Source of the DNA: Cryomorphaceae bacterium | GTDB lineage: Bacteria > Bacteroidota > Bacteroidia > Flavobacteriales_D > Sanyastnellaceae | Direction of reading: 5' to 3' | Length of the DNA stretch: 47,683 nt | Assembly: GCA_016124575.1 (NCBI GenBank) | Contig: WGNM01000059.1 | Span: 1 to 47,683, forward strand | In this document: positions 348 to 37,248 of the stretch, piece after piece | How positions within the stretch are numbered: the first letter of the stretch is position 1 | Layout of the letters: each line of letters starts with the position of its first letter | Notes under the pieces: model-generated | Told to the model about the DNA's origin: nothing | Database searches by the model: none | Seen by the model: only the letters and a program-made list of their open reading frames with translations | Position numbers and translations under genes: made by a program

Positions 348-3300
348 ATGAAACGAGTAGTATTAAATGTGGTTTTTATGCTGTGTTGCTTGTCAGCAGT
401 GCACGGACAAAAAAAGAAGGAGTTTTCGAAGATTCCAGATGAATTTGTAAAAGAGCTAGCAAATTTACTGGGAGACTCGAAAAAAGAAGGCAAAAAATGG
501 GCTGAAGAAGAGTTCGGTCCAATCTTTATGTCGGGTGCCATAACCCCTCTGATGAAGTCGAAAACCGTTGAAGCATGCAATAAGTTCCAAGATGCTAAAT
601 TGTCTGCATATCCCGTTTTCTATGAATATCTGAGGGCGGTCATGTATTACCCGCGTTCGCGGAAACCGGAAGAGTTTTTTATGACTTGGCACGACTTCAT
701 GTATAAGATGCTCGATGATAAAAAACTTAAAAAACAACTGCCCGGATTTATTGAGACGTCAGCTTCTCTATATGAACGCCAAGCTTTTTATGCAACAGGT
801 GCCGTCGAATGGAAGTTTTCGAATGCTAGCTACGATTTTGTCTTTGACTCAATTCCATCCATCGTTTTCCCTGGCGGTAACCTGATCGGATTGTCGAAAG
901 GTGATAGCACGGTAATCTACGATACAAAAGGTATTTATTATCCTTTAACCAATAAATGGGATGGTGATGGAGGGCGCGTGCAATGGGACCGGGCGGAATT
1001 TGATCCAACAACAACCTATGCGGAATTTGGAAAATACGATGTACGGATCAAAGGAACGACGTACATCATTGATAGTGTGCTGTTTTACAATGAATATTTT
1101 GATAAACCGCTGATCGGACAACTAACAGAAAAGGTGTTGGCGGATAAAACGGCAGAAGATGCCAGCTATCCGCGTTTTGAATCGTACAACAAAAGGCTGC
1201 AAATCAAGAACATTTTTGAAAATGTAGACTACGACGGTGGTTTCACCATGCGGGGTAGCAAATTGGCAGGAACTGGCACTACTGAAGAACCTGCGATGCT
1301 GCGTTTCTACAGAGATGGAAAACCATTTCTCGATGCCCGTTCTCTGGAATTCGTTATTCGCCCTGATCGATTCAATTCCCCTCACACTTCTGTAGAATTT
1401 AAAATCGAGGAATCTATTATCACTCACCCTGATGTGTCGCTGAAATTCGATCGTACTTCTCGTGAATTGGTGCTTATCAGAAGCGATGAAGGTCTTTCTA
1501 AAAGTCCGTACATAAACACATACCATAACTTGGATATGTTCTTCGAAGCGCTATATTGGAATATCGATGATCCTCTCATTGAAATGGGTTCGATCTTTGG
1601 ATCAACACAACATTATGCTGCTTTCGAATCAAACACTTTTTTCAAGGAGGAACGCTACGATAACATGATCGGATTTAGCAATCTGCATCCGCTGATTGAA
1701 GTGAGCGATTACATAAAAAAGAACAACAAAGACAGTTTTTATGCCTATGAACTGGGCGGCTATATGCGGTTGTCAGAAGAACAGTCGGAAGTGCTGCTTA
1801 TCAATATGGCCAACACGGGTTTTGTAGATTATGATTTGAATACGAAGTACTGTGTGGTGCAGCAAAAACTCTTCAACTACATCGAAAATGCAAGTGGCAA
1901 AAGAGACTATGATGTGCTGCTCTTCAACAGTGAAACCGATGGTAGAACGAAGAATGCTCAGTTGAATCTGCTCAACTACAATCTCTTACTGAAAGGGATT
2001 AAAAGAATCCAATTGTCTGATTCTCAGAACGTAACGATCAATCCTTCTAACGAGGAGGTGATCGTAAAGAAAAACAGGGATTTCAAATTTGGCGGACGTG
2101 TATGGGCAGGTAATTTTGAGTTTATTGGAAAGGATTATTTCTTCAATTATGAGGAATTTAAAATCGACCTTCTCGCTGTTGATAGTTGCCGCATTTATGT
2201 GGAAGACGAAGAAGGTCCCGTGGGTTTAGATGGCAAACGTCCGCGCTCACGTGTCAAAAACGTATTGGAAGATATCTCTGGAACCCTGCGAATCGATTCG
2301 CCAACGAACAAGTCTGGAACGCAATCGAAAGTCTATCCTCAATACCCAATTTTCAATTGTGAACGGAATTCTTACGTCTATTACGACAATAGCCGCATCC
2401 AAAAAGGAGCCTACAAACGCGATAAGTTCTACTACCAAATTTTGCCGTTTACAATCGATAGCCTCGATAATTTCTCTAAAGGGGATCTCAAATTCAATGG
2501 TTCGCTGGTGTCGGCAGGTATCTTCCCCGAAATAACTGAACCTTTGGTTCTGATGGAGGATAACGCGCTTGGATTTGATCTTACCACCACAGGAAGTGGA
2601 TTGCCGCTTTACAAAGGTGTAGGTAAGTTTACGACAGATATCAAACTCAATTACAATGGGTTGCAAGGAAATGGTGCTGTCGATTACCTCACTGCAAACG
2701 CTGAATCTGACCAGTTTATATTTTTACCAGATTCAACAATTGGTCGGACAAGACGATTTGAAAACAAAGAGAAACGCGGGGGAAAAGAGGTGCCGAGAGT
2801 AATGGGTGGCGCTACTGATCTTGTGTTCAAACCCTACCAAAACTTCCTGACTTCTACAACTACCAAAGATGAACCGCTGACCTTCTTCAATGATGAGGCT
2901 GTTTTGAAGGGTACCCTCAAACTAGAGCCTGAAGGCATGACAGGGAATGGGGATATGGAGTTCTCGGAATCTGTTCTGGGCTCAGAAAAATTCAGGTACA
3001 CAGCGAGGAAAATTCTTGCCGACACATCAAACTTTGAGCTCTCAAATGTAGATCTAGGAGCCTTGGCTTTCAAGACTGATAACGTAAGCGCAGATGTCGA
3101 TTTCGATAAGCGAATGGGGCAGTTTAAATCCAATGGCGGTGAAACGAAAATCGAATTCCCAGCAAACCAATACATCTGTTTCATGGATGAGTTTAAGTGG
3201 TTTATGGATAAGAATGAAATGGAACTTAGCTCAAACAGAAAACCAGCTGAAGACTTCGTTATCGATACGGCTGAAGATCAGACTTTGAGCAATTTCTTCT

Positions 3301-4817
3301 CCGTGCATGAGACCCAAGATTCACTTAACTTCCTCGCTCCTAATGCGTTGTATGATGTTAAAACGTCAACAATCCGTTGCCGCAAGGTGAAATTCATCAC
3401 GGTGGCCGATTCTCGTGTGCTTCCTGATAGCGGTATGGTTTATATCCGCAAACGTGCCGCGATGGATCCGCTAACAAGGGCGACTGTCATCTCAAACTAT
3501 GTAACGCAATACCACAGGGTGTTCGACGCTAACATCGAAATCAAAGGGAAGAAGGAATACTACGGCGATGGCATGTACACGTACGTGGATGAAAACAAAA
3601 TGGAGCAAATCATTAAAATCGATAAAATTGAGGTCGATAGCACGCTCCAAACAATTGGCAAGGGCGCTATCGCGGATGATGCAGCATTTATGCTTTCGCC
3701 TTTCTTCGAATACCAAGGTAAGTTCGAACTGTATGCAAATGCACAAAACTTAACGTTCGAAGGGGGAACTCGCATTATGCAAAACTGCGCGAACATCGAG
3801 CGTGGTTGGTTTAAATTCCGCTCTGAAATTAACCCAAAGGAAATCTATATCCCTGTCGATACCAATATGCGCGACATCGGCATGGCCAAGCTAGGTGCGG
3901 GTGTCATGGTGGCCGATGACACTCCAATTGATGTCTATGGTTCGTTCCTATCTCGTAAGAAAGATAGAAACGATGCCCCTCTAATCGAGGCCATTGGGTT
4001 CTTGTTTTACGATAAGCCGACTAAAACTTATAAAATCGGTAGCAAGGAGAAAATCAAACAACCGAAATTGGCGGGTAACCTAGTAACGTTCAATACTGAA
4101 AATTGTATGATCAAGGGTGATGGAGAAATCAATTATCAATTGGATTTCGGACACGTGAAAGTGAAATCTTTCGGTGATATCGAAAACAATACAAATACCG
4201 ACTCTATCGCAGTAAGCGGAACGATGTCGATCGATTTTTTCTTCGATGAAGGCATGCTGAAACGTATGACGGAACAGTTGGAGCAATGGCCTGGTTTGCA
4301 GCCGGTAGACATAACAAAAACGAATTATGAGAAAACCATTCGCGAGGTGATGAGCCAGGAAGAATCTGATAAGGTGATTTCTGAATTAACGCTAAACGGA
4401 CAGTTCAAACGTATTCCGCAGGAGTTGCAAAAAACCTTGTACTTGGCTGATGTTCATTTCATTTGGGATGATGTCGAAGAGTCGTTCATATCCCAAGGTC
4501 CTATTGGTATTGCCTCACTAGACAAAAAACAGGTGTTCAAATACGTAAAAGGGAAAATCGAAATGGTGAAGTCGCGTAGTGCCGATGTTCTACGTGTCTA
4601 TATCGAACTGGATCCAGGTACTTGGTATTTCTTTGAATACAAACTCGGAATCATGAATATCACTGCTACCGACCAAGATTTCATAAATACGTTGACTGAA
4701 TTGAAAGATGACAAACGAAAGGTGAAGGATGAAGCAGGTGAAAAGTTTGTTTTCCAATTGGTGGCGTCGAAAAAGAAGCGCAACGATTTTGTCGATCGTT
4801 TCCCTGATCTCAACTAA
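348..4817 (+). CDS. Very large secreted protein of unknown function (1489 aa), beta-rich
   Basis: I do not recognise this family. The protein starts with a Sec signal peptide (residues 1-21: basic start, hydrophobic VVFMLCCLSAVHG, then Q), so it is exported. Residues about 22-140 look helical. The remainder is rich in alternating hydrophobic/polar residues, as in extended beta structures. A motif G-x-G followed by a short beta strand recurs: LQGNGAVDY (about 772), MTGNGDMEF (864), YYGDGMYTY (1071), IKGDGEINY (1255). This might mark repeats of a beta-helix or OstA/LptA-like fold, but that is inference. There is no type IX secretion C-terminal domain, lipobox or obvious catalytic motif. The next gene begins 9 bases after the stop, so the two are probably co-transcribed. 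The start at 348 is the first ATG and is followed at once by the signal peptide. Confidence 0.85.
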   Translation: MKRVVLNVVFMLCCLSAVHGQKKKEFSKIPDEFVKELANLLGDSKKEGKKWAEEEFGPIFMSGAITPLMKSKTVEACNKFQDAKLSAYPVFYEYLRAVMYYPRSRKPEEFFMTWHDFMYKMLDDKKLKKQLPGFIETSASLYERQAFYATGAVEWKFSNASYDFVFDSIPSIVFPGGNLIGLSKGDSTVIYDTKGIYYPLTNKWDGDGGRVQWDRAEFDPTTTYAEFGKYDVRIKGTTYIIDSVLFYNEYFDKPLIGQLTEKVLADKTAEDASYPRFESYNKRLQIKNIFENVDYDGGFTMRGSKLAGTGTTEEPAMLRFYRDGKPFLDARSLEFVIRPDRFNSPHTSVEFKIEESIITHPDVSLKFDRTSRELVLIRSDEGLSKSPYINTYHNLDMFFEALYWNIDDPLIEMGSIFGSTQHYAAFESNTFFKEERYDNMIGFSNLHPLIEVSDYIKKNNKDSFYAYELGGYMRLSEEQSEVLLINMANTGFVDYDLNTKYCVVQQKLFNYIENASGKRDYDVLLFNSETDGRTKNAQLNLLNYNLLLKGIKRIQLSDSQNVTINPSNEEVIVKKNRDFKFGGRVWAGNFEFIGKDYFFNYEEFKIDLLAVDSCRIYVEDEEGPVGLDGKRPRSRVKNVLEDISGTLRIDSPTNKSGTQSKVYPQYPIFNCERNSYVYYDNSRIQKGAYKRDKFYYQILPFTIDSLDNFSKGDLKFNGSLVSAGIFPEITEPLVLMEDNALGFDLTTTGSGLPLYKGVGKFTTDIKLNYNGLQGNGAVDYLTANAESDQFIFLPDSTIGRTRRFENKEKRGGKEVPRVMGGATDLVFKPYQNFLTSTTTKDEPLTFFNDEAVLKGTLKLEPEGMTGNGDMEFSESVLGSEKFRYTARKILADTSNFELSNVDLGALAFKTDNVSADVDFDKRMGQFKSNGGETKIEFPANQYICFMDEFKWFMDKNEMELSSNRKPAEDFVIDTAEDQTLSNFFSVHETQDSLNFLAPNALYDVKTSTIRCRKVKFITVADSRVLPDSGMVYIRKRAAMDPLTRATVISNYVTQYHRVFDANIEIKGKKEYYGDGMYTYVDENKMEQIIKIDKIEVDSTLQTIGKGAIADDAAFMLSPFFEYQGKFELYANAQNLTFEGGTRIMQNCANIERGWFKFRSEINPKEIYIPVDTNMRDIGMAKLGAGVMVADDTPIDVYGSFLSRKKDRNDAPLIEAIGFLFYDKPTKTYKIGSKEKIKQPKLAGNLVTFNTENCMIKGDGEINYQLDFGHVKVKSFGDIENNTNTDSIAVSGTMSIDFFFDEGMLKRMTEQLEQWPGLQPVDITKTNYEKTIREVMSQEESDKVISELTLNGQFKRIPQELQKTLYLADVHFIWDDVEESFISQGPIGIASLDKKQVFKYVKGKIEMVKSRSADVLRVYIELDPGTWYFFEYKLGIMNITATDQDFINTLTELKDDKRKVKDEAGEKFVFQLVASKKKRNDFVDRFPDLN

Positions 4818-31409: not shown

Positions 31410-33704
31410 TTACGGCTCTGTTACCGAGGCAATCACAAATTTGATTTCGTTGTATGAATAGCGCTCTCCCAAAAGCTCTTTTATAGGCATCAATTTATCC
31501 GTGCCTGCCTTTGCTATCGCTTCTTTGATGTGCTGTATCTTGCTCTCACTCACCAATCGTGTGATGTCGATCTCGCCTGTATGCAGATAATCTACAAGGT
31601 GTCCTTCTATGGTTGAATTAGAGAGCTTGCGCATCATGGCGATCTCACTTATGCCAATGCCTTCCTTGAAAAGTATGAAGGTTTCTTCAGCAGAACTGAT
31701 CTTCTTAGCTGCTGGTTTTTTCTCTTTTTTCTTGTACTTCTCGCTCTTGCGAATCACTTTTTCTACGAGGTCGTCGGTGGTTAAAATAACGCGGTTTTTA
31801 TCTGCTCCCAATACTTTCTCTCGCAATGCTATCAATGATTTATCGTCGTCGATGAGTTTTAAACTCTCACGACTCAACTCACTGTTAGACGTCAAGGCCT
31901 GAGCCAATCCTGCCGCGCGTTTTATCAAGGTCAACTGATCCGATACAAGTTTTTCAATTTCCAAAAGCTCCTGTTTGAACTGCTTCACACCTTTGCTCGC
32001 TCCAAGCGCTAAAACCCTTTCCAATAGGCTCGTTGCTATCTTGCGAAGCAATGGGGCGAAATGGGTGTGGGCTTTTTCCAAGCGGATTTCAATGGCTGAT
32101 ACCTCGGCTCGCTTTTGTACCAGCGAATGCAGCTCGCCTAGAAAACGATCGGCGATAAGCTTCAATTCTTCAATCTCACCAGTAGTTTCTATAGCCCATG
32201 CTTTGCTATGCTGCTTCTGCGATCGCGTTTCTTCTTTGTCGTAGGTTTCTACATGCAGCTTGAACTCTCTCAATAGTGACGAGAAGCTATAGGCGTGCAA
32301 TATGTTGTTTACGAAGTACTTATAGCTTTCATCGTCAATCAAATCTAACAACTGCTGCGGCTCGGGCTTTTTCTGGGCATACGCCAAAACATGTGCGTCG
32401 GTAAAAAGCGAATCATGCTTGATGTTCGAGGTAAGAATCAAACCGTCTAACGATCGCAATCGCGACAGTGCAACGTACACCTGTCCGGCTGAAAAGGCAC
32501 CTTCCACATCCACGATGGCTTTCTCGAAAGTAAGTCCCTGACTTTTGTGCACGGTAATCGCCCAGGCGAGTTTCAAGGGGAAATGTGAAAAACTGCCAGC
32601 GACAACAGACTCAATCTCATTTGTTATTTCGCTAAAGCTGAAGTGGTTGTTCTCCCACTCATAGCGGTCTACACGAATGGAGTTGCTGTCGTCGGTGCAT
32701 TTAACGAATACTTCGTCTGAACTCAAATGGGTGACGGTTCCAATTTTTCCGTTGTAAAATCGTCCGCTGCCACTTGGGTCGTTTTTGATATACATTACTT
32801 GCGCACCAACCTTCAATTTCAACTTCCGATCAAGGGGGTATTGGTGCTCTGGAAAGTCTCCGACGATTTCAGCGTCGTACGTAAATTCCCGCTCTTTGAG
32901 CGACGCCAATGCGCTAGAATTCAATTGATCAGCTTTGTAATTGTGAGTCGTAAGCGTAATGATGCCTTCGTCTGGACGTGCCTGGTAGCTGGGCTTGTAA
33001 TGCTGGTTGAGCAACAAGGCGTCTTCAGATGTTATGGTGTTCTTGCGCAGATTATTCAATAAACCTATAAAGCGGTCGTCGCTCTGTCGGTAAATCTTTT
33101 CTAACTCCACATATACCGGCGTGTCGTAATGCAACGCGCGTGCGTCGAAAAAAAACATGGAGTTGTAATAACTCCGCAACTCTGCCCACTCATCGTCTTT
33201 TACCACGGGCGGCAATTGCAACATATCGCCAATAAATAGTATCTGAACTCCTCCAAAAGACTCTTGCATGCGTCTGCGCACCATGCGCAAAATGAAATCA
33301 ACGGCATCAAGCAAGTCGGCCCGCAACATGCTCACTTCGTCGATAATCAAGAGCTCCAAATTCTGCAAAACTTTGCGCTTGGTTTTATTCATGCGCATGT
33401 TCTTTACAAGGGAGTCGTTATCGTGCAATTTACCCATCAAGAATGGTGGCAGACTCGCATTCCTTACAGGTAAAAATCCACCAAAAGGCAGGTGAAACAT
33501 GCTGTGCAAGGTAACTCCCCCAGCATTCAACGCTGCTATTCCTGTAGGCGCAACGATGGCTGTCTGCTTGTAGGTGTGTTCTACAATATGACGCAAAAAG
33601 GTGGTCTTTCCGGTTCCTGCGTTGCCGGTAAGAAATATGTGGCGCGAGCTGTTGTTAATGAGTCGCGAGGCGCGGGTGGCTGGGTCGTTTTTTTGATACT
33701 GCAT
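31410..33704 (-). CDS. PIF1/RecD-like helicase with a C-terminal helix-turn-helix domain
   Basis: The 764-aa protein is a superfamily 1B DNA helicase. Walker A is GNAGTGKT (27-34), Walker B IIDEVSML (120-127), and motif III GDMLQLPPV (about 160). The later TVHKSQGLTFEKAIVD block with VYVALSRLRSLDGL are the closing motifs V and VI. Residues about 470-640 are helical, probably coiled. The end (AEETFILFKEGIGISEIAMM to KFVIASV, about 670-760) matches the HTH_40 type domain also seen at the end of some RecQ and PIF1-like proteins of Bacteroidota. It likely acts in replication or repair, for example resolving G-quadruplexes or R-loops. It stands alone. Its start is the ATG at 33704; two 14-base direct repeats lie 58-92 bases upstream. 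Confidence 0.9.
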   Translation of the reverse strand: MQYQKNDPATRASRLINNSSRHIFLTGNAGTGKTTFLRHIVEHTYKQTAIVAPTGIAALNAGGVTLHSMFHLPFGGFLPVRNASLPPFLMGKLHDNDSLVKNMRMNKTKRKVLQNLELLIIDEVSMLRADLLDAVDFILRMVRRRMQESFGGVQILFIGDMLQLPPVVKDDEWAELRSYYNSMFFFDARALHYDTPVYVELEKIYRQSDDRFIGLLNNLRKNTITSEDALLLNQHYKPSYQARPDEGIITLTTHNYKADQLNSSALASLKEREFTYDAEIVGDFPEHQYPLDRKLKLKVGAQVMYIKNDPSGSGRFYNGKIGTVTHLSSDEVFVKCTDDSNSIRVDRYEWENNHFSFSEITNEIESVVAGSFSHFPLKLAWAITVHKSQGLTFEKAIVDVEGAFSAGQVYVALSRLRSLDGLILTSNIKHDSLFTDAHVLAYAQKKPEPQQLLDLIDDESYKYFVNNILHAYSFSSLLREFKLHVETYDKEETRSQKQHSKAWAIETTGEIEELKLIADRFLGELHSLVQKRAEVSAIEIRLEKAHTHFAPLLRKIATSLLERVLALGASKGVKQFKQELLEIEKLVSDQLTLIKRAAGLAQALTSNSELSRESLKLIDDDKSLIALREKVLGADKNRVILTTDDLVEKVIRKSEKYKKKEKKPAAKKISSAEETFILFKEGIGISEIAMMRKLSNSTIEGHLVDYLHTGEIDITRLVSESKIQHIKEAIAKAGTDKLMPIKELLGERYSYNEIKFVIASVTEP

Positions 33705-33761
33705 GTGGACAATGTCACGACCCGCAAGTTAATGGCTCTGGAGGCTTTGACGGGTGTCATC

Positions 33762-33796
33762 GACAAACTTTTAATGCACAATGACAAACTTTTTAT
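33762..33796. repeat. Pair of 14-base direct repeats upstream of the helicase gene
   Basis: GACAAACTTTTAAT (33762-33775) and GACAAACTTTTTAT (33783-33796) start 21 bases apart, two turns of B-DNA. They lie in the 156-base gap between the helicase (-) and moaD (+) starts. Such phased repeats often bind a protein on one DNA face, but nothing shows which gene they would serve. Confidence 0.4.
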
Positions 33797-33860
33797 CACT
33801 TCGTGGATGTGAATGTCTTCACCACCTTTTTTGCTGATCGAATATTTGTTTCTTTGCCTC

Positions 33861-34103
33861 ATGCATATTCAACTTTTTTGTTTTGGTCAGGTGAAGGAGG
33901 CTATAGGTGCCAACCTTGTCGATTTCGAATGTGATGAGGGTGATTCTGTAAAAGCTCTGAAAATGAAGCTTTTAAATGTCTATGGTGGATTAAAAGAGGT
34001 TCCCGATTTCCGTTTTGCTGTCAACCAAGAATATGTTGGTGAAGACTATGAGTTGTCTGAAAATGATGAAGTTGCAATCATTCCACCAGTCAGCGGCGGA
34101 TGA
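33861..34103 (+). CDS. moaD: Molybdopterin synthase sulfur carrier subunit
   Basis: The 80-aa ubiquitin-like protein carries the sulfur as a C-terminal thiocarboxylate for molybdopterin synthesis. It ends in the required double glycine (AIIPPVSGG) and has the family outline: IQLFCFGQVKEAIG, a helix, FRFAVNQEYV and LSENDEVAIIPP. The ATG at 33861 gives a protein of normal MoaD length. The frame is open 16 codons earlier but that stretch contains a TTTCTTTG -7-like box, one mismatch from TAnnTTTG, ending 4 bases before this ATG. Its partner moaE is 1.6 kb downstream on the same strand, beyond the repeat array; in most genomes the two are adjacent. Confidence 0.88.
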   Translation: MHIQLFCFGQVKEAIGANLVDFECDEGDSVKALKMKLLNVYGGLKEVPDFRFAVNQEYVGEDYELSENDEVAIIPPVSGG

Positions 34104-34167
34104 TGATCCGTTTCTAAGTCTTTAGTGGATGAATTGATAATTGTTCATTCACCGTATCAGGGCTTTC

Positions 34168-34290
34168 AAAATTCCTCTCTTTTTTACTCTTTTTTCGTTT
34201 GGTTATGGAATAGTCGTCGCCCAAGAGTGGGTGTCTTTGTCGTGGATAAAATCGATAAACAAAGGGGTATGAGAGTGGGATTGAGAATAA
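34168..34290. repeat. Partial, diverged copy of the moaD-moaE repeat unit
   Basis: It corresponds to the middle of the full unit: a T-rich stretch, TTCGTTTGGTTATGGAATA, and ATCGATAAACAAAGGGGTAT followed by the purine-rich tract. It is more diverged than the other copies. Its AAAATTCCTCTCTTTTTTAC start also reappears at 35584-35605 after the truncated copy. Confidence 0.7.
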
Positions 34291-34371
34291 GAAAAAGAGT
34301 GGAAGTGAGAAAGTAAGAGAGAAAGAGTAAGAAATAGGAACTGAGTAGTTTGTGAAAGAATTAAGGGTCTG

Positions 34372-34855
34372 AAAATCAATGGGTTTGCGCCCTGCGGGCC
34401 CTCCCTCCCCCGCGCCGTCAACACCGTGCACTGCAAAGGTAAGCTCTCAAAAAAAGCTTGTCAATAGGCACTTTGTGTGTGCAGACGAAAACTTTGTATT
34501 TGCACGTTTTCAGCCGTTTTTTTGGAGATAAAACGAAGTTGAGTTTCATGTCTCGTTCCCAGAACTTGAAACCACGTAAATCAATCCATCTGGTCGTTCG
34601 AAATTCTTCGTTTTTTTACTCCTTTTTCGTTTGGTTATGGAATACTCGTTCCAGCATGAGCGGGGTGACCTTGTTGTAGAATAAATCGATAAACAAAGGG
34701 GTATGAGAGTGAGAGTGGGAAATGGAGTGCTATTACTAGAAAAATCCGACATCGACAATCCAATGCAGGACATAAATCAACCATGTAAATCCATGGAAGT
34801 GCTTAGTCAATAATCTGTAAACTTACTTTAGGACGGGTCATATTTTAGGAGGGTT
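34372..34855. repeat. Full repeat unit A (484 bp)
   Basis: Unit order: AAAATCAATGGG, GC-rich block TTTGCGCCCTGCGGGCCC, the CAAAGGTA promoter box, a block around TTTGCACGTTTTCAGCCG, a T-rich block, TTCGTTTGGTTATGG, a purine-rich tract, CCATGTAAATCCATGG, and GGACGGGTCATATTTTAGG. It is nearly identical to unit B apart from the length of the purine tract. Confidence 0.88.
34434..34464 (-). promoter_or_regulatory. Leftward -33/-7 promoter in repeat unit A
   Basis: Minus strand: TTG (top 34462-34464), 20 bases, TACCTTTG (top 34434-34441), a full match to the Bacteroidota consensus. The predicted transcript starts near 34428, runs through the GC-rich block and heads towards moaD in antisense. Confidence 0.6.
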
Positions 34856-35358
34856 AAAATCAATGGGTTTGCGCCCTGCGGGCCCTCCCTCCCCCGCGCC
34901 GTCAACACCGTGCACTGCAAAGGTAAGCTCTCAGAAAAAGCTTGTCAATAGGCACTTTGTGTGTGCAGATGAAAACTTTGTATTTGCACGTTTTCAGCCG
35001 TTTTTTTGGAGATAAAACGAAGTTGAGATTCATGTCTCTTTCCCACAACTTGAAACCACGTAAATCAATCCATCTGGTCGTTCGAAATTCTTCGTTTTTT
35101 TACTCCTTTTTCGTTTGGTTATGGAATACTCGTTCCTGCATGAGCGGGGTGACTTTGTTGTAGAATAAATCGATCAACAAAAGAGTATGAGAGTGGGAAA
35201 TGGGAATGAGAGTGAGAATGAGAAATGGAGTGCTATTACCAGAAAAATCCGACATCGACAATCCAATGCAGGACAGAAATCAACCATGTAAATCCATGGA
35301 AGTGCTTAATCAATAATATATAAACTTATTTTAGGACGGGTCATATTTTAGGAGGGTT
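34856..35358. repeat. Full repeat unit B (503 bp)
   Basis: Same order as unit A. The 19-base difference in length comes from the purine-rich tract (GGGAATGAGAGTGAGAATGA added). Single-base differences are scattered through the rest. Confidence 0.88.
34918..34948 (-). promoter_or_regulatory. Leftward -33/-7 promoter in repeat unit B
   Basis: TTG (top 34946-34948), 20 bases, TACCTTTG (top 34918-34925) on the minus strand. Both boxes and the spacing are unchanged from unit A, although bases between them differ. Confidence 0.6.
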
Positions 35359-35539
35359 AAAATCAAAGGGTTTGCGCCCTGCGGGCCCTCCCTCCCCCGC
35401 GCCGTCAACACCGTGCACTGCAAAGGTAAGCTCTCAGAAAAAGCTTGTCAATAGGCACTTTGTGTGTGCAGACGAAAACTTTGTATTTGCACGTTTTCAG
35501 CCGTTTTTTTGGAGATAAAACGAAGTTGAGATTCATGTC
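35359..35539. repeat. Truncated repeat unit C (about 181 bp)
   Basis: Identical in order to units A and B from AAAATCAAAGGG to GAGATTCATGTC, then diverges. It keeps the GC-rich block and the promoter but lacks the T-rich, purine-rich and CCATG parts. A short T-rich piece like the partial copy follows at 35584-35605. Confidence 0.85.
35421..35451 (-). promoter_or_regulatory. Leftward -33/-7 promoter in repeat unit C
   Basis: TTG (top 35449-35451), 20 bases, TACCTTTG (top 35421-35428) on the minus strand, the third unchanged copy. Confidence 0.6.
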
Positions 35540-35675
35540 CATAGCCCCAACTTGAAACGACGCGTATCATTCAATCCAGTCGCACAAAATTCCTCTCTTT
35601 TTTACTTCCAATTACTCAAGCTGAACCAAGCAGCAACCGACCTATAGCAATTCCCTCAAAAGCTCAATTCTGCCT

Positions 35676-35683
35676 TATCTTTG
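35676..35683 (+). promoter_or_regulatory. -7 box of moaE
   Basis: TATCTTTG matches TAnnTTTG, 31 bases before the moaE ATG. No clear -33 TTG. It shows that moaE can be transcribed on its own, apart from moaD. Confidence 0.55.
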
Positions 35684-35714
35684 CATGCGTTATTAAGTGC
35701 ATATTGCCAACTAA

Positions 35715-36128
35715 ATGAGTATTCAAATTGTATCTTCTGAAATTGATGTGGAGGCGTGTCGCAAAAGCGCAGCAGCCGATGCGGCAGGCGCTGTGGTGGT
35801 GTTTGTAGGTGCGGTAAGAGACAATACGAAGGGCAGGGAGGTGGTCAGGCTGGAGTATGAGGCCTATGTTCCTATGGCGATCAAGGTGCTCGGTCAGATT
35901 TGCGAGCGCGCGGAGTCGATGTTCGGATTGCTCAAAATAACGGTCCATCACCGCATTGGGATTCTCAATGTGGGCGATACTGCTGTGGCAATCGCTGTGT
36001 CGGCACCGCACCGTAAAGCGGCGTTCGATGGCTGCCAATTCATTATCGATGAGCTGAAAAAGGATGTCCCTATATGGAAAAAAGAGTGCTTCACCGATGG
36101 TGAAGCATGGCTCACTGACCGTCCTTAA
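35715..36128 (+). CDS. moaE: Molybdopterin synthase catalytic subunit
   Basis: The 137-aa protein joins with MoaD to put the dithiolene sulfurs into precursor Z, giving molybdopterin. Family residues are visible: FVGAVRDNTKG (30-40, with R35), EYEAY (48-52), HHRIG (78-82), APHRKAAF (97-104) and the catalytic lysine region PIWKKE (119-124). The start at 35715 gives the family's usual N-terminus. It has its own -7 box. Its 3' end overlaps the end of the convergent mobA gene by 17 bases. It is the first gene after the repeat array that separates it from moaD. Confidence 0.93.
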   Translation: MSIQIVSSEIDVEACRKSAAADAAGAVVVFVGAVRDNTKGREVVRLEYEAYVPMAIKVLGQICERAESMFGLLKITVHHRIGILNVGDTAVAIAVSAPHRKAAFDGCQFIIDELKKDVPIWKKECFTDGEAWLTDRP

Positions 36129-37248
36129 GATTCAATTTTTCTAAATCTTCTGGGGTGTTGAGGTTGAACAGTTTCTGCGGGTCGGTAGGCGCAATGAGGT
36201 GGGTCGGGGTGTTGATGAGCACTTTGCGCGGACAACTATAGCCTTTACTCAAGAAATGAAGGAGGTCGGGGTAGATGTTGGGCTCATACAAGGCACAAAG
36301 TGGATCGGCAAATCCAGTGATGGGATTCAAAAAGGCGGTGGCATTGTGCGCCAATGAGCGGTTCGAAAGGAGTTCGCTCAAATGGTGGCGATCTACCAAG
36401 GGCATGTCTGACGCCAATACGAGCCAGGCGGCGTTGGGATGGGTGGCAAAGGCTGTCAAAATAGCGCCAAAGGGCCCAAAGTCGATAAACCGGTCTACTA
36501 AAGCAGGGAGCTGCTTGTCGTTGTTTTCTGAACCGACACTCAAAAAGGTTTTTTCACACAGGCCTGAAAGCATCTCAAATGCATGCTGGTACTGCGGTTT
36601 GCCGTGGTGCGCGATTCGGGTCTTGTCATAGCCCATGCGGGTCGATTTGCCTCCCGCTAACACCAATCCGTAAATTGGTGGGGGGGTGTATAGACTTGCT
36701 ACGATTTGCGGCAATCGATCGTCGTCGGGGTGCACGATTTGAATGTCTGCAGAGAATTCGTTGCGCAAGTCGAGGGGTATGTTTTCAATATCGGTTGCGA
36801 CAATAATTTTGCAATTTTTGCGTTGTAGGTGGCGTTTGCGGACACTCGCTTCTTTTTTTTGATTCCAAATCCATACGGTTTGAGCGGTTTCGAAATGATT
36901 GGCATTGACAAATGCGATGTTGGTCCTGTGATTTACAATCGATGATAAGTCGCTGATAGACAAGTCTATGTGTAGCGATGATTGAAGTCCTTGATCAATA
37001 ATTTCTTGTCGAAATGCGGCGTCGCTGCGGTTGCAAAAATCTGGTGCGTCAAAGGCGGTGTGGTCGGCGTCAACGTAGGTTGTGCTATGCTGTATTTCTC
37101 TGGCAATTTTCGCGCATACAGCGCGGATGTGATCGCAATCGCTGCCGAAGAAGCCGATGTCTACATTACCAAACTTGCCTCTCAAAGGCTTCTCCAATCC
37201 TGCATGTCTACCCACGATGAAAATCTTTTTTACCTCCTGTCTTCTCAA
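36112..37248 (-). CDS. mobA: Molybdenum cofactor guanylyltransferase (MobA-like) with an extra N-terminal domain
   Basis: The C-terminal half (about 190-378) is a MobA-type nucleotidyltransferase, with GLVLAGGKSTRMGYDKT (194-210), then SVGSEN, and the metal-binding ASDMPLVD (D281). It would attach GMP (or a similar nucleotide) to the cofactor. The first 190 residues are not MobA: IFIVGRHAGLEKPL, IGFFGSDCDHIRAVCAKIAREI, TYVDADH. They look like a MobB-like P-loop domain that has lost the G-K-S/T loop; this is inference. Its start overlaps the moaC end by 41 bases, and it is the last gene of the minus-strand moa operon. The tail overlaps moaE by 17 bases. Confidence 0.82.
   Translation of the reverse strand: MRRQEVKKIFIVGRHAGLEKPLRGKFGNVDIGFFGSDCDHIRAVCAKIAREIQHSTTYVDADHTAFDAPDFCNRSDAAFRQEIIDQGLQSSLHIDLSISDLSSIVNHRTNIAFVNANHFETAQTVWIWNQKKEASVRKRHLQRKNCKIIVATDIENIPLDLRNEFSADIQIVHPDDDRLPQIVASLYTPPPIYGLVLAGGKSTRMGYDKTRIAHHGKPQYQHAFEMLSGLCEKTFLSVGSENNDKQLPALVDRFIDFGPFGAILTAFATHPNAAWLVLASDMPLVDRHHLSELLSNRSLAHNATAFLNPITGFADPLCALYEPNIYPDLLHFLSKGYSCPRKVLINTPTHLIAPTDPQKLFNLNTPEDLEKLNLKDGQ

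Follow-up and report, generated by a model that had tools for sequence, protein, structure and literature searches.

The repeated DNA that separates moaD from moaE in the Cryomorphaceae bacterium studied here is, as judged from sequence comparison, an array of three tandem copies of a dispersed element of ~165 bp. This element forms a family whose members keep a G-quadruplex (G4) motif with an adjoining hairpin, hold a recurrent geometry in the genera g1 and g16, and share their operator with insertion sequences (IS) of the IS1595 type. The layout of the copies, the T runs that follow the hairpin in g16 and the orientation of the next genes lead us to hold a multicopy family of G4 small-RNA genes as the most likely explanation, i.e. 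activator-controlled units that would make a short G4 RNA, a reading in which our confidence falls just short of even. We infer the activator, the transcription, the RNA and any target from this layout.

In the window, by which we mean the whole stretch of 47,683 nucleotides analysed, the array comprises ~1.45 kb of direct repeats with start-to-start spacings of 484 and 503 bp and partial units on both sides (Table 1). The first-pass annotation had described such 484- and 503-bp units with their partial neighbours, together with a GC-rich block, a T-rich block and a purine tract of varying length; all of these can be seen in the sequence, the start of the array lying nearer 34156 than 34168. 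The unit delimited in this way is nevertheless not the element, as only ~165 bp of it are conserved and the rest is local flank and an IS-end-like module that were co-duplicated. Because the left neighbours of the core differ between loci and the module behaves like an IS end, the 484/503-bp unit is best taken as a compound of core, local flank and IS remnant, duplicated together. Array units matched a 300-nt reference at 96% (spacing 484) and 74% (spacing 503), and the three window cores are 98.6-99.3% identical to each other and at most 91% to other loci. The small CCATG/CATGG inverted repeat, previously counted among the parts of the unit, is indeed present, twice only (34781-34796 and 35284-35299), and belongs to the separate module, not to the core; this module looks like a decayed IS end distinct from the core element. 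Four stretches matching the module end were found near contig ends in genome G023, their inner sequence being the same and their outer flanks different, which is IS-end-like.

Table 1. Features of the moaD-moaE interval, with positions in the window.
Feature	Position	Strand	Basis
Whole repeat array between moaD and moaE	34156..35607	.	sequence, direct-repeat search
Core element copy 1	34382..34548	- (read on minus strand)	sequence comparison, profile
Core element copy 2	34866..35032	-	sequence comparison, profile; 98.6% identity to copy 1
Core element copy 3	35369..35535	-	sequence comparison, profile; 99.3% identity to copies 1 and 2
Operator copy 1: two ACAAAGT boxes, 21 bp start to start	34470..34503	-	sequence
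Operator copy 2	34954..34987	-	sequence
Operator copy 3	35457..35490	-	sequence
Predicted promoter copy 1: TTGACA (34459-34464), 17 nt, TACCTTTG (34434-34441)	34434..34464	-	sequence
Predicted promoter copy 2	34918..34948	-	sequence
Predicted promoter copy 3	35421..35451	-	sequence
G-quadruplex motif copy 1, GGGGGAGGGAGGG...GGG, and hairpin GCCC-GCA-GGGC	34389..34411	-	sequence
G-quadruplex motif and hairpin copy 2	34873..34895	-	sequence
G-quadruplex motif and hairpin copy 3	35376..35398	-	sequence
IS-end-like module, end ACTTTAGGACGGGTCA, adjoining core copy 2, containing CCATG/CATGG	34740..34840	.	sequence
IS-end-like module, second instance, adjoining core copy 3	35243..35343	.	sequence
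Purine-rich tract, length varies	34268..34340; also ~34695-34729, ~35179-35231	.	by eye
21-bp direct repeat flanking the array	left 34168..34188, right 35586-35606	.	sequence
moaD-like gene (ThiS family)	33813..34103	+	Pfam E 2e-14
moaE	35715..36128	+	Pfam E 1.1e-39

A search of the genome and of relatives, as proposed in the first-pass annotation, found the unit dispersed in the former and present in the latter. In its own genome (G000; 3.68 Mb, 61 contigs) the array had 23 matches including itself, i.e. 22 further ones rather than a single occurrence, and most of these consist of the ~165-bp core, limited by GGTTTG[C/A]CCCT at one end and GGAGATAAAACGAAG at the other. A sequence profile built from 29 copies retrieved from G000 at least 23 element copies at 17 loci, one of them cut by a contig end, and at least 4 partial matches in IS1595 ends; from G001, a genome of the same genus, it retrieved 10 elements (one cut) among 15 matches. 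Elsewhere the profile matched 11 times in G016, eight times in G033, five times in each of G012 and G031 and twice in G002, and four further genomes of the family, among them G011, G072 and G131, gave one weak match each; at E 0.01, 11 of the 114 genomes of the family had matches. A strict hairpin-plus-C-tract pattern occurred in 7 of 399 genomes sampled from the order, all in one family (reversed control, 0), and 22 times in G000, where one place was counted twice. No match was obtained in plasmids and phages with blastn of 200 bp, nor in viral contigs with an exact 22-base pattern. Two of 11 genome-scan matches fell outside the family (L063 in Sphingobacteriales, L070 in Chryseobacterium) and were judged to be chance, having the pattern alone in common, and a match in g6 (L146) is without G4. 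No description of the element was found in the literature searched, which left out most subscription journals and all preprints.

Five of the 17 loci in G000 carry tandem cores (C17, C55, C9, C38 and the window). To the left of the core the neighbours vary by locus, being either a purine-rich tract or a module ending in TTTTAGGACGGGTCA, and purine-rich tracts similar to those of the window lie upstream of other core copies. To the right, the loci share little sequence except between orthologues, between tandem units, in L044/L045 (56 bp) and in L046/L049/L050 (up to 199 bp). Across genera one gap is common, beside an M23 peptidase gene (L028/L052 and L137/L138), and L038/L139 have a common neighbourhood with the element in a different gap; on a rough estimate, such positional sharing scarcely exceeds chance. 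Some neighbourhoods hold further repeats: in L042 (~3285-3470) the purine tract preceding one core is, by eye, a ~37-bp tandem repeat of ~5 copies, and at L046 (2100-3300), L041 and L233 the flanks are intergenic islands rich in other short repeats (of the GGTGGCTGAGG.ACTCG.ATAA and GCTTCGACAAGCTCAG types), and these islands show strong differences between the two species. Downstream of the core, g12 has a second half-copy (TTGTCAATAGG and boxes, without G4), which is retained in both species (L132/L133).

All 53 copies counted, which come from four genera, have the G4 motif, defined as at least four tracts of at least three G; in mononucleotide shuffles the mean was 12.9 such copies and no shuffle exceeded 23 of 53. 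The motif has four or five tracts, which stay constant while the loops between them read A, C, T, AA, AAA, ATA, CTA, ACTA or TCTA. A hairpin stands at the end of the G4 in all 53 copies, the outer pair being G-C in 40, A-T in 9, C-G in 2 and unpaired in 2, and the loop GCA in 22, GCGA in 18, GCAA in 8, GCCA in 3 and GACA or GCTA in the remainder. These counts, and those of the boxes, cover 22 of 23 copies in G000, 9 of 10 in G001, 7 of 11 in G016, 8 of 8 in G033, 3 of 5 in G031, 2 of 5 in G012 and 2 of 2 in G002, copies within a genus and orthologues being non-independent; L132 of G012, in which the G4 letters are visible, was left out because of its duplicated hairpin.

Ordinary RNA folding of six copies gave no gain over dinucleotide shuffles (z -1.0 to +1.0), and RNAalifold on 43 sequences returned only two invariant pairs, with tri- and tetraloops misaligned in A2. 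When ten copies were folded with quadruplexes, two from g16, one from g12, one from g2 and two of g1 subtype B beat mononucleotide shuffles (z -2.3 to -5.2), and four of g1 subtype A stayed near them (z -0.7 to -1.6). In g16, 9 of 15 copies have a run of at least five T no more than 50 nt beyond the hairpin (shuffled mean 2.25; 9 was reached in 1 of 2000 shuffles), as expected of a short terminated RNA if the unit is transcribed; in g1 such runs are not enriched (4 of 31, shuffled mean 4.1). Of the readings offered by the first-pass annotation, an array of small RNA genes is the one that the anatomy favours most, since the order and spacing of operator, -7 element and G4 are constant in two genera and G4 plus hairpin recur in four, but it draws nothing from ordinary RNA folding, which is no better than shuffles.

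Read on the minus strand and aligned by the G-rich part, the copies follow the order two boxes, -7 element, G4 and hairpin. Both boxes have the consensus nYACAAAGT, and the ACAAAGT boxes recur at a period of 21 bp, at which the box-pair score reaches 12.94 in g1 (31 copies) against 9.4-10.5 at the other periods from 16 to 27, 12.33 against 8.9-10.1 in g16 (15 copies) and 10.2 against 8.0-9.2 in g12 (5 copies); in g2 (2 copies) the peak is less clear, 10.5 against 8.0-10.0. Shuffled means were 7.8-7.95, with maxima over 200 rounds of 8.29, 8.60, 8.80 and, for g2, 10.0. The distance from box 2 to the best TAnnTTyG (-7 element), counted without a preferred distance, is 35 bp in 29 of 31 g1 copies, the other two being ties that include 35. 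In g16 it is 34 in 3 of 15 copies, 44-45 in 8 and 25 in 2, with two ties that include 44, and the longer spacing of 44-45 bp amounts to one helical turn more. Only two of the five g12 copies have the -7 element at 35 (two have it at 40 and one at 60), and in g2 it lies at 45 and 57, so that these genera have a weaker promoter geometry with the G4 kept. TTGACA is found in g1 and g12 and not in g16, and in the window it lies 17 nt ahead of the -7 element. G000 contains 14 strict box pairs and the reversed control none; eight lie within elements, five before IS1595-type genes and one before another gene. The strict pair was not found in G016, and in g12 it did not exceed the reversed control (1 vs 1 in G012, 0 vs 2 in G031).

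LytTR regulators recognize repeats of 9 bp, and in the window 12 bp separate the 9-bp boxes and 5 bp lie between box 2 and TTGACA. The direct repeats bound by LytTR proteins are described as mostly 12 bp apart and, in Streptococcus mutans, 4-11 bp upstream of the -35 (PMC6193735), and the sigma-A consensus reported for Flavobacterium psychrophilum is TAnnTTTG at -12 to -5 (PMC9723704). Two direct repeats with a 21-bp period, a few bp upstream of the -35, are what is found in g1; g16 has them without TTGACA and mostly with the longer gap. Judging by these motifs, the element is laid out like an activator-dependent promoter. The next gene ahead is opposite in direction at 27 of 37 loci (orthologues included, ORFs of at least 100 aa; 28 with moaD, which lies below the length cut-off), which argues that the element is not its promoter and that the product is no mRNA leader; a simple promoter for the next gene was rejected on this ground. 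Parts of the arrangement also occur by themselves: a comF-like gene, named by eye (L131 1850-2060, G001:C249), has element-like boxes and TTGACA without a fitting -7 element, and in g16 an apparent stop codon is directly followed by a box pair that has neither a G4 nor a clear -7 element (L159, G033:C52:28523).

The same operator precedes transposase genes. In all eight IS1595-type genes scored in G000 and G001 (6 lineages) the best 21-bp box pair lies 81-96 bp before the ATG, the shuffle p being at most 0.026 in seven and 0.19 in L196, the orthologue of L190. The eight were drawn from 13 IS1595 matches; of the remaining five, four are 3' ends lying at contig ends and one (G001 C14) has a strict pair; the C4 and C14 genes fall below Pfam's own cut-off for PF12762. 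In other genera 10 of 13 matches were scored, L267, L269 and L270 being broken or cut so that their upstream regions are effectively untestable, and the 7 testable loci gave p 0.006 for L273 and 0.175 to 0.999 for the remaining six. Either this operator was acquired by the IS within the genus, or such an IS is the source of the element's right half. The window itself starts with the 3' end of an IS1595-type transposase (2-160, +) with the terminal repeat GCGGATAATCAA. Elsewhere in G000 a gene is preceded by a lone IS1595-type operator pair, perhaps a solo IS end serving as promoter, but no IS gene follows (G000:C52:69583; L195 2084-2112).

Comparison of orthologous loci informs on constraint and movement. 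Seven same-subtype pairs in g1 and g12 have cores 90-99% identical and 200-bp flanks, partly coding, 57-98% identical, one flank of L056/L057 being as identical as the core. Between G012 and G031 the core is 98-99% identical, and the copies there are few and unlike, so that they offer little material for gene conversion. Of two g16 pairs, L143/L145 has a core of 72% against flanks of 54% and 40%, with the stretch from G4 to -7 nearly unchanged, and L137/L138 a core of 57% against flanks of 76% and 60%, with little retained beyond hairpin and G-tracts. Next to a gene named by eye as valS-like, G001 has a 1.4-kb repeat island with one core where G000 has plain intergenic DNA, and at L041 the gap contains two cores in G000 but other sequence and no core in G001. 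A check for target duplication met no clean single-element empty site, the G001 island differing by 1.4 kb. Among five orthologous pairs compared for exchange, L035/L044 is clearly mosaic, 86% identical in the box half and 64% in the G4 half, where each member matches other loci at 96-98%, and it looks as if it had been exchanged in the G4 half only; L030/L051 is ambiguous (56% and 72%), and three pairs agree throughout.

Several known classes of sequence were considered and set aside. The first-pass annotation had held that the repeats neither code for protein nor are CRISPR, and both statements stand: minus-strand frames are open in some copies, but the subtypes differ by frame-shifting indels (by eye) and both members of the outer hairpin pair change, and the units are ~0.5 kb with related spacers, not short repeats with unique spacers of constant length. 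REP elements with their RAYT transposases do not fit either, as the Y1 transposase (PF01797) had no match in G000 and G001 and one each in G012 and G031, and the conserved unit is ~165 bp rather than a 20-40 bp palindrome with a GTAG-type foot; 'atypical' structures are described for Bacteroidetes TnpAREP of subclass 2.6 (PMC6006769). A classical MITE was rejected, there being no inverted pairs of length 20 in 33400-36600 and the element ends GGTTTG and GGAGATAAAACGAAG not matching each other. No Rfam RNA reached the gathering score in the window, and a relaxed scan of 33700-36200 gave two chance-level matches (E 4.6 and 7).

Mobility and recombination were the two other possibilities raised by the first-pass annotation. 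The copies could be non-autonomous mobile elements related to the IS1595 of the genus and moved by its transposase, their conserved parts being transposition signals and their maintenance purely selfish, which we consider unlikely. They are dispersed, and the 1.4-kb island of G001 with nothing in its place in G000 is an insertion polymorphism; 7 of 8 IS1595-type genes in the genus have a clear box pair, and the right half of the G000/G001 element is, by eye, collinear with the IS1595 left end (terminal sequence, ~40 bp, box, 21 bp, box, TTGTC, TAnnTTCG). However, neither terminal inverted repeats nor a dedicated transposase were found, no IS counterpart was seen for the G4 end, the orthologous g1 and g12 copies remain constrained after insertion, and in other genera six of seven tested IS1595 loci are without a clear box pair, yet the g16 elements have boxes. 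We regard it as quite unlikely that the element is a starter of recombination of the pilE kind, in which transcription would free the G-rich strand, the G4 would fold and trigger strand exchange between copies, and the RNA would be idle. Loops of the GNA and GNNA types are stable in DNA, and all hairpin loops are of these types, 5 of 53 (GCCA, GACA, GCTA) not being RNA GNRA loops. By sequence, a predicted promoter lies beside the G4 and would read its G-rich strand, the orientation reported for gonococcal pilE (PMC3547852). Tandem copies at 5 of 17 loci and the one clear segmental exchange between subtypes (86% vs 64% in L035/L044) may point towards a recombination hot spot; only one in five orthologous pairs is clearly mosaic, which gene conversion of any dispersed repeats or re-insertion at an old site could explain, and g12 has only a few diverged copies, which have stayed stable between two species.

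Decayed repeats without present function, alike through gene conversion and amplified by slippage, are to our mind still less probable. Their location in islands with several other kinds of repeat, the plain local flank contained in the 484/503-bp units and the divergence of L137/L138 throughout would suit such an origin, but the spacing in g1 and g16 is constant despite changing letters, the G-tracts are retained in 53 of 53 copies and the G012/G031 core is 98-99% identical. Very doubtful, too, is a joint scheme in which one activator would switch IS1595-type transposases together with dozens of G4 units, the resulting genome-wide opening of G4 DNA amounting to programmed, signal-dependent intergenic remodelling; that this opening would coincide with the making of transposase and recombination factors is an equally speculative part of the scheme.

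If the small-RNA reading that we prefer is correct, a LytTR-type activator would bind the box pair and recruit sigma-A RNA polymerase, transcription would start ~18 nt ahead of the G4, in copy 1 near 34429, and the product would be a short non-coding RNA with G4 and hairpin as its conserved body. In this genus the family would multiply, spread via intergenic repeat islands and sometimes swap segments. The array would be a local tandem triplication of one copy of this dispersed ~165-bp transcription unit, having arisen when a ~0.5-kb segment with IS remnant and local flank was duplicated to give the three copies between moaD and moaE.

The identity of the flanking genes as a ThiS/MoaD-type protein and MoaE is confirmed by Pfam, and the view that the two are usually adjacent holds among relatives. 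A search of 60 genomes, own genome counted, yielded moaE in 31, and in 19 of 29 other moaE loci inspected a moaD-like gene is co-directional and no more than 82 bp away; the array therefore breaks a usual neighbourhood. At the remaining loci the moaD-like neighbour is convergent in one, farther (641-1173) in five and missing from the stretch in four, these genes being recognized in relatives by their C-terminal motif only and L244, at a contig end, judged by eye. Neither moaD nor moaE as array flank was found in G001, the only other genome of the genus in the comparison, whose assembly is 85% complete. Transcribed as predicted, the three copies would be read in the direction of the moaD 3' end, antisense to that gene. 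A PIF1-like helicase with an HTH_40 domain (31410-33704, -) adjoins moaD close to the G4 array; PIF1 helicases unwind G4 DNA, and their proximity here is probably a coincidence.

Should the layout be real, the family would provide a natural multicopy set of promoter plus quadruplex with comparative evidence for selection on the quadruplex, because the G-tracts persist in every counted copy, with loops that differ in both letters and length. It would offer a second bacterial setting for asking about the role of a transcribed G4, with a defined operator for finding the regulator, and this host-type operator is linked to a set of IS1595-type transposase genes.

Among known systems, the IS1595-family IS of the same genus resemble the element in the operator and promoter layout before the transposase gene, and differ in having terminal repeats and a transposase, with no G4 or hairpin seen there. 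The LytTR-type operators, as described in PMC6193735, are alike in the two direct repeats, the 12-bp gap and the short distance to the -35, whereas the box sequence of the element is its own and g16 has a second spacing one helical turn longer. FopS of Bacteroides thetaiotaomicron, with 14 members (PMC11697453), is by its description a comparable case from the same phylum of paralogous non-coding units scattered in one genome; unlike such families, the element has a G4 as its conserved body and no Rfam match. The GGGNATC repeats of Xanthomonas and Nostoc (PMC4692102) are likewise intergenic G4-forming repeats spread across a bacterial genome, but they are heptamer repeats, and the abstract speaks of neither a promoter nor an operator belonging to them. 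In the G4-associated sRNA of pilE in Neisseria gonorrhoeae, as described (PMC3547852), a promoter likewise gives a short non-coding RNA with the G-rich RNA strand at a G-quadruplex; that start lies within the G4, whereas the element, dispersed in at least 23 copies and equipped with an operator of 21-bp period and a hairpin, has its predicted start ~18 nt before it.
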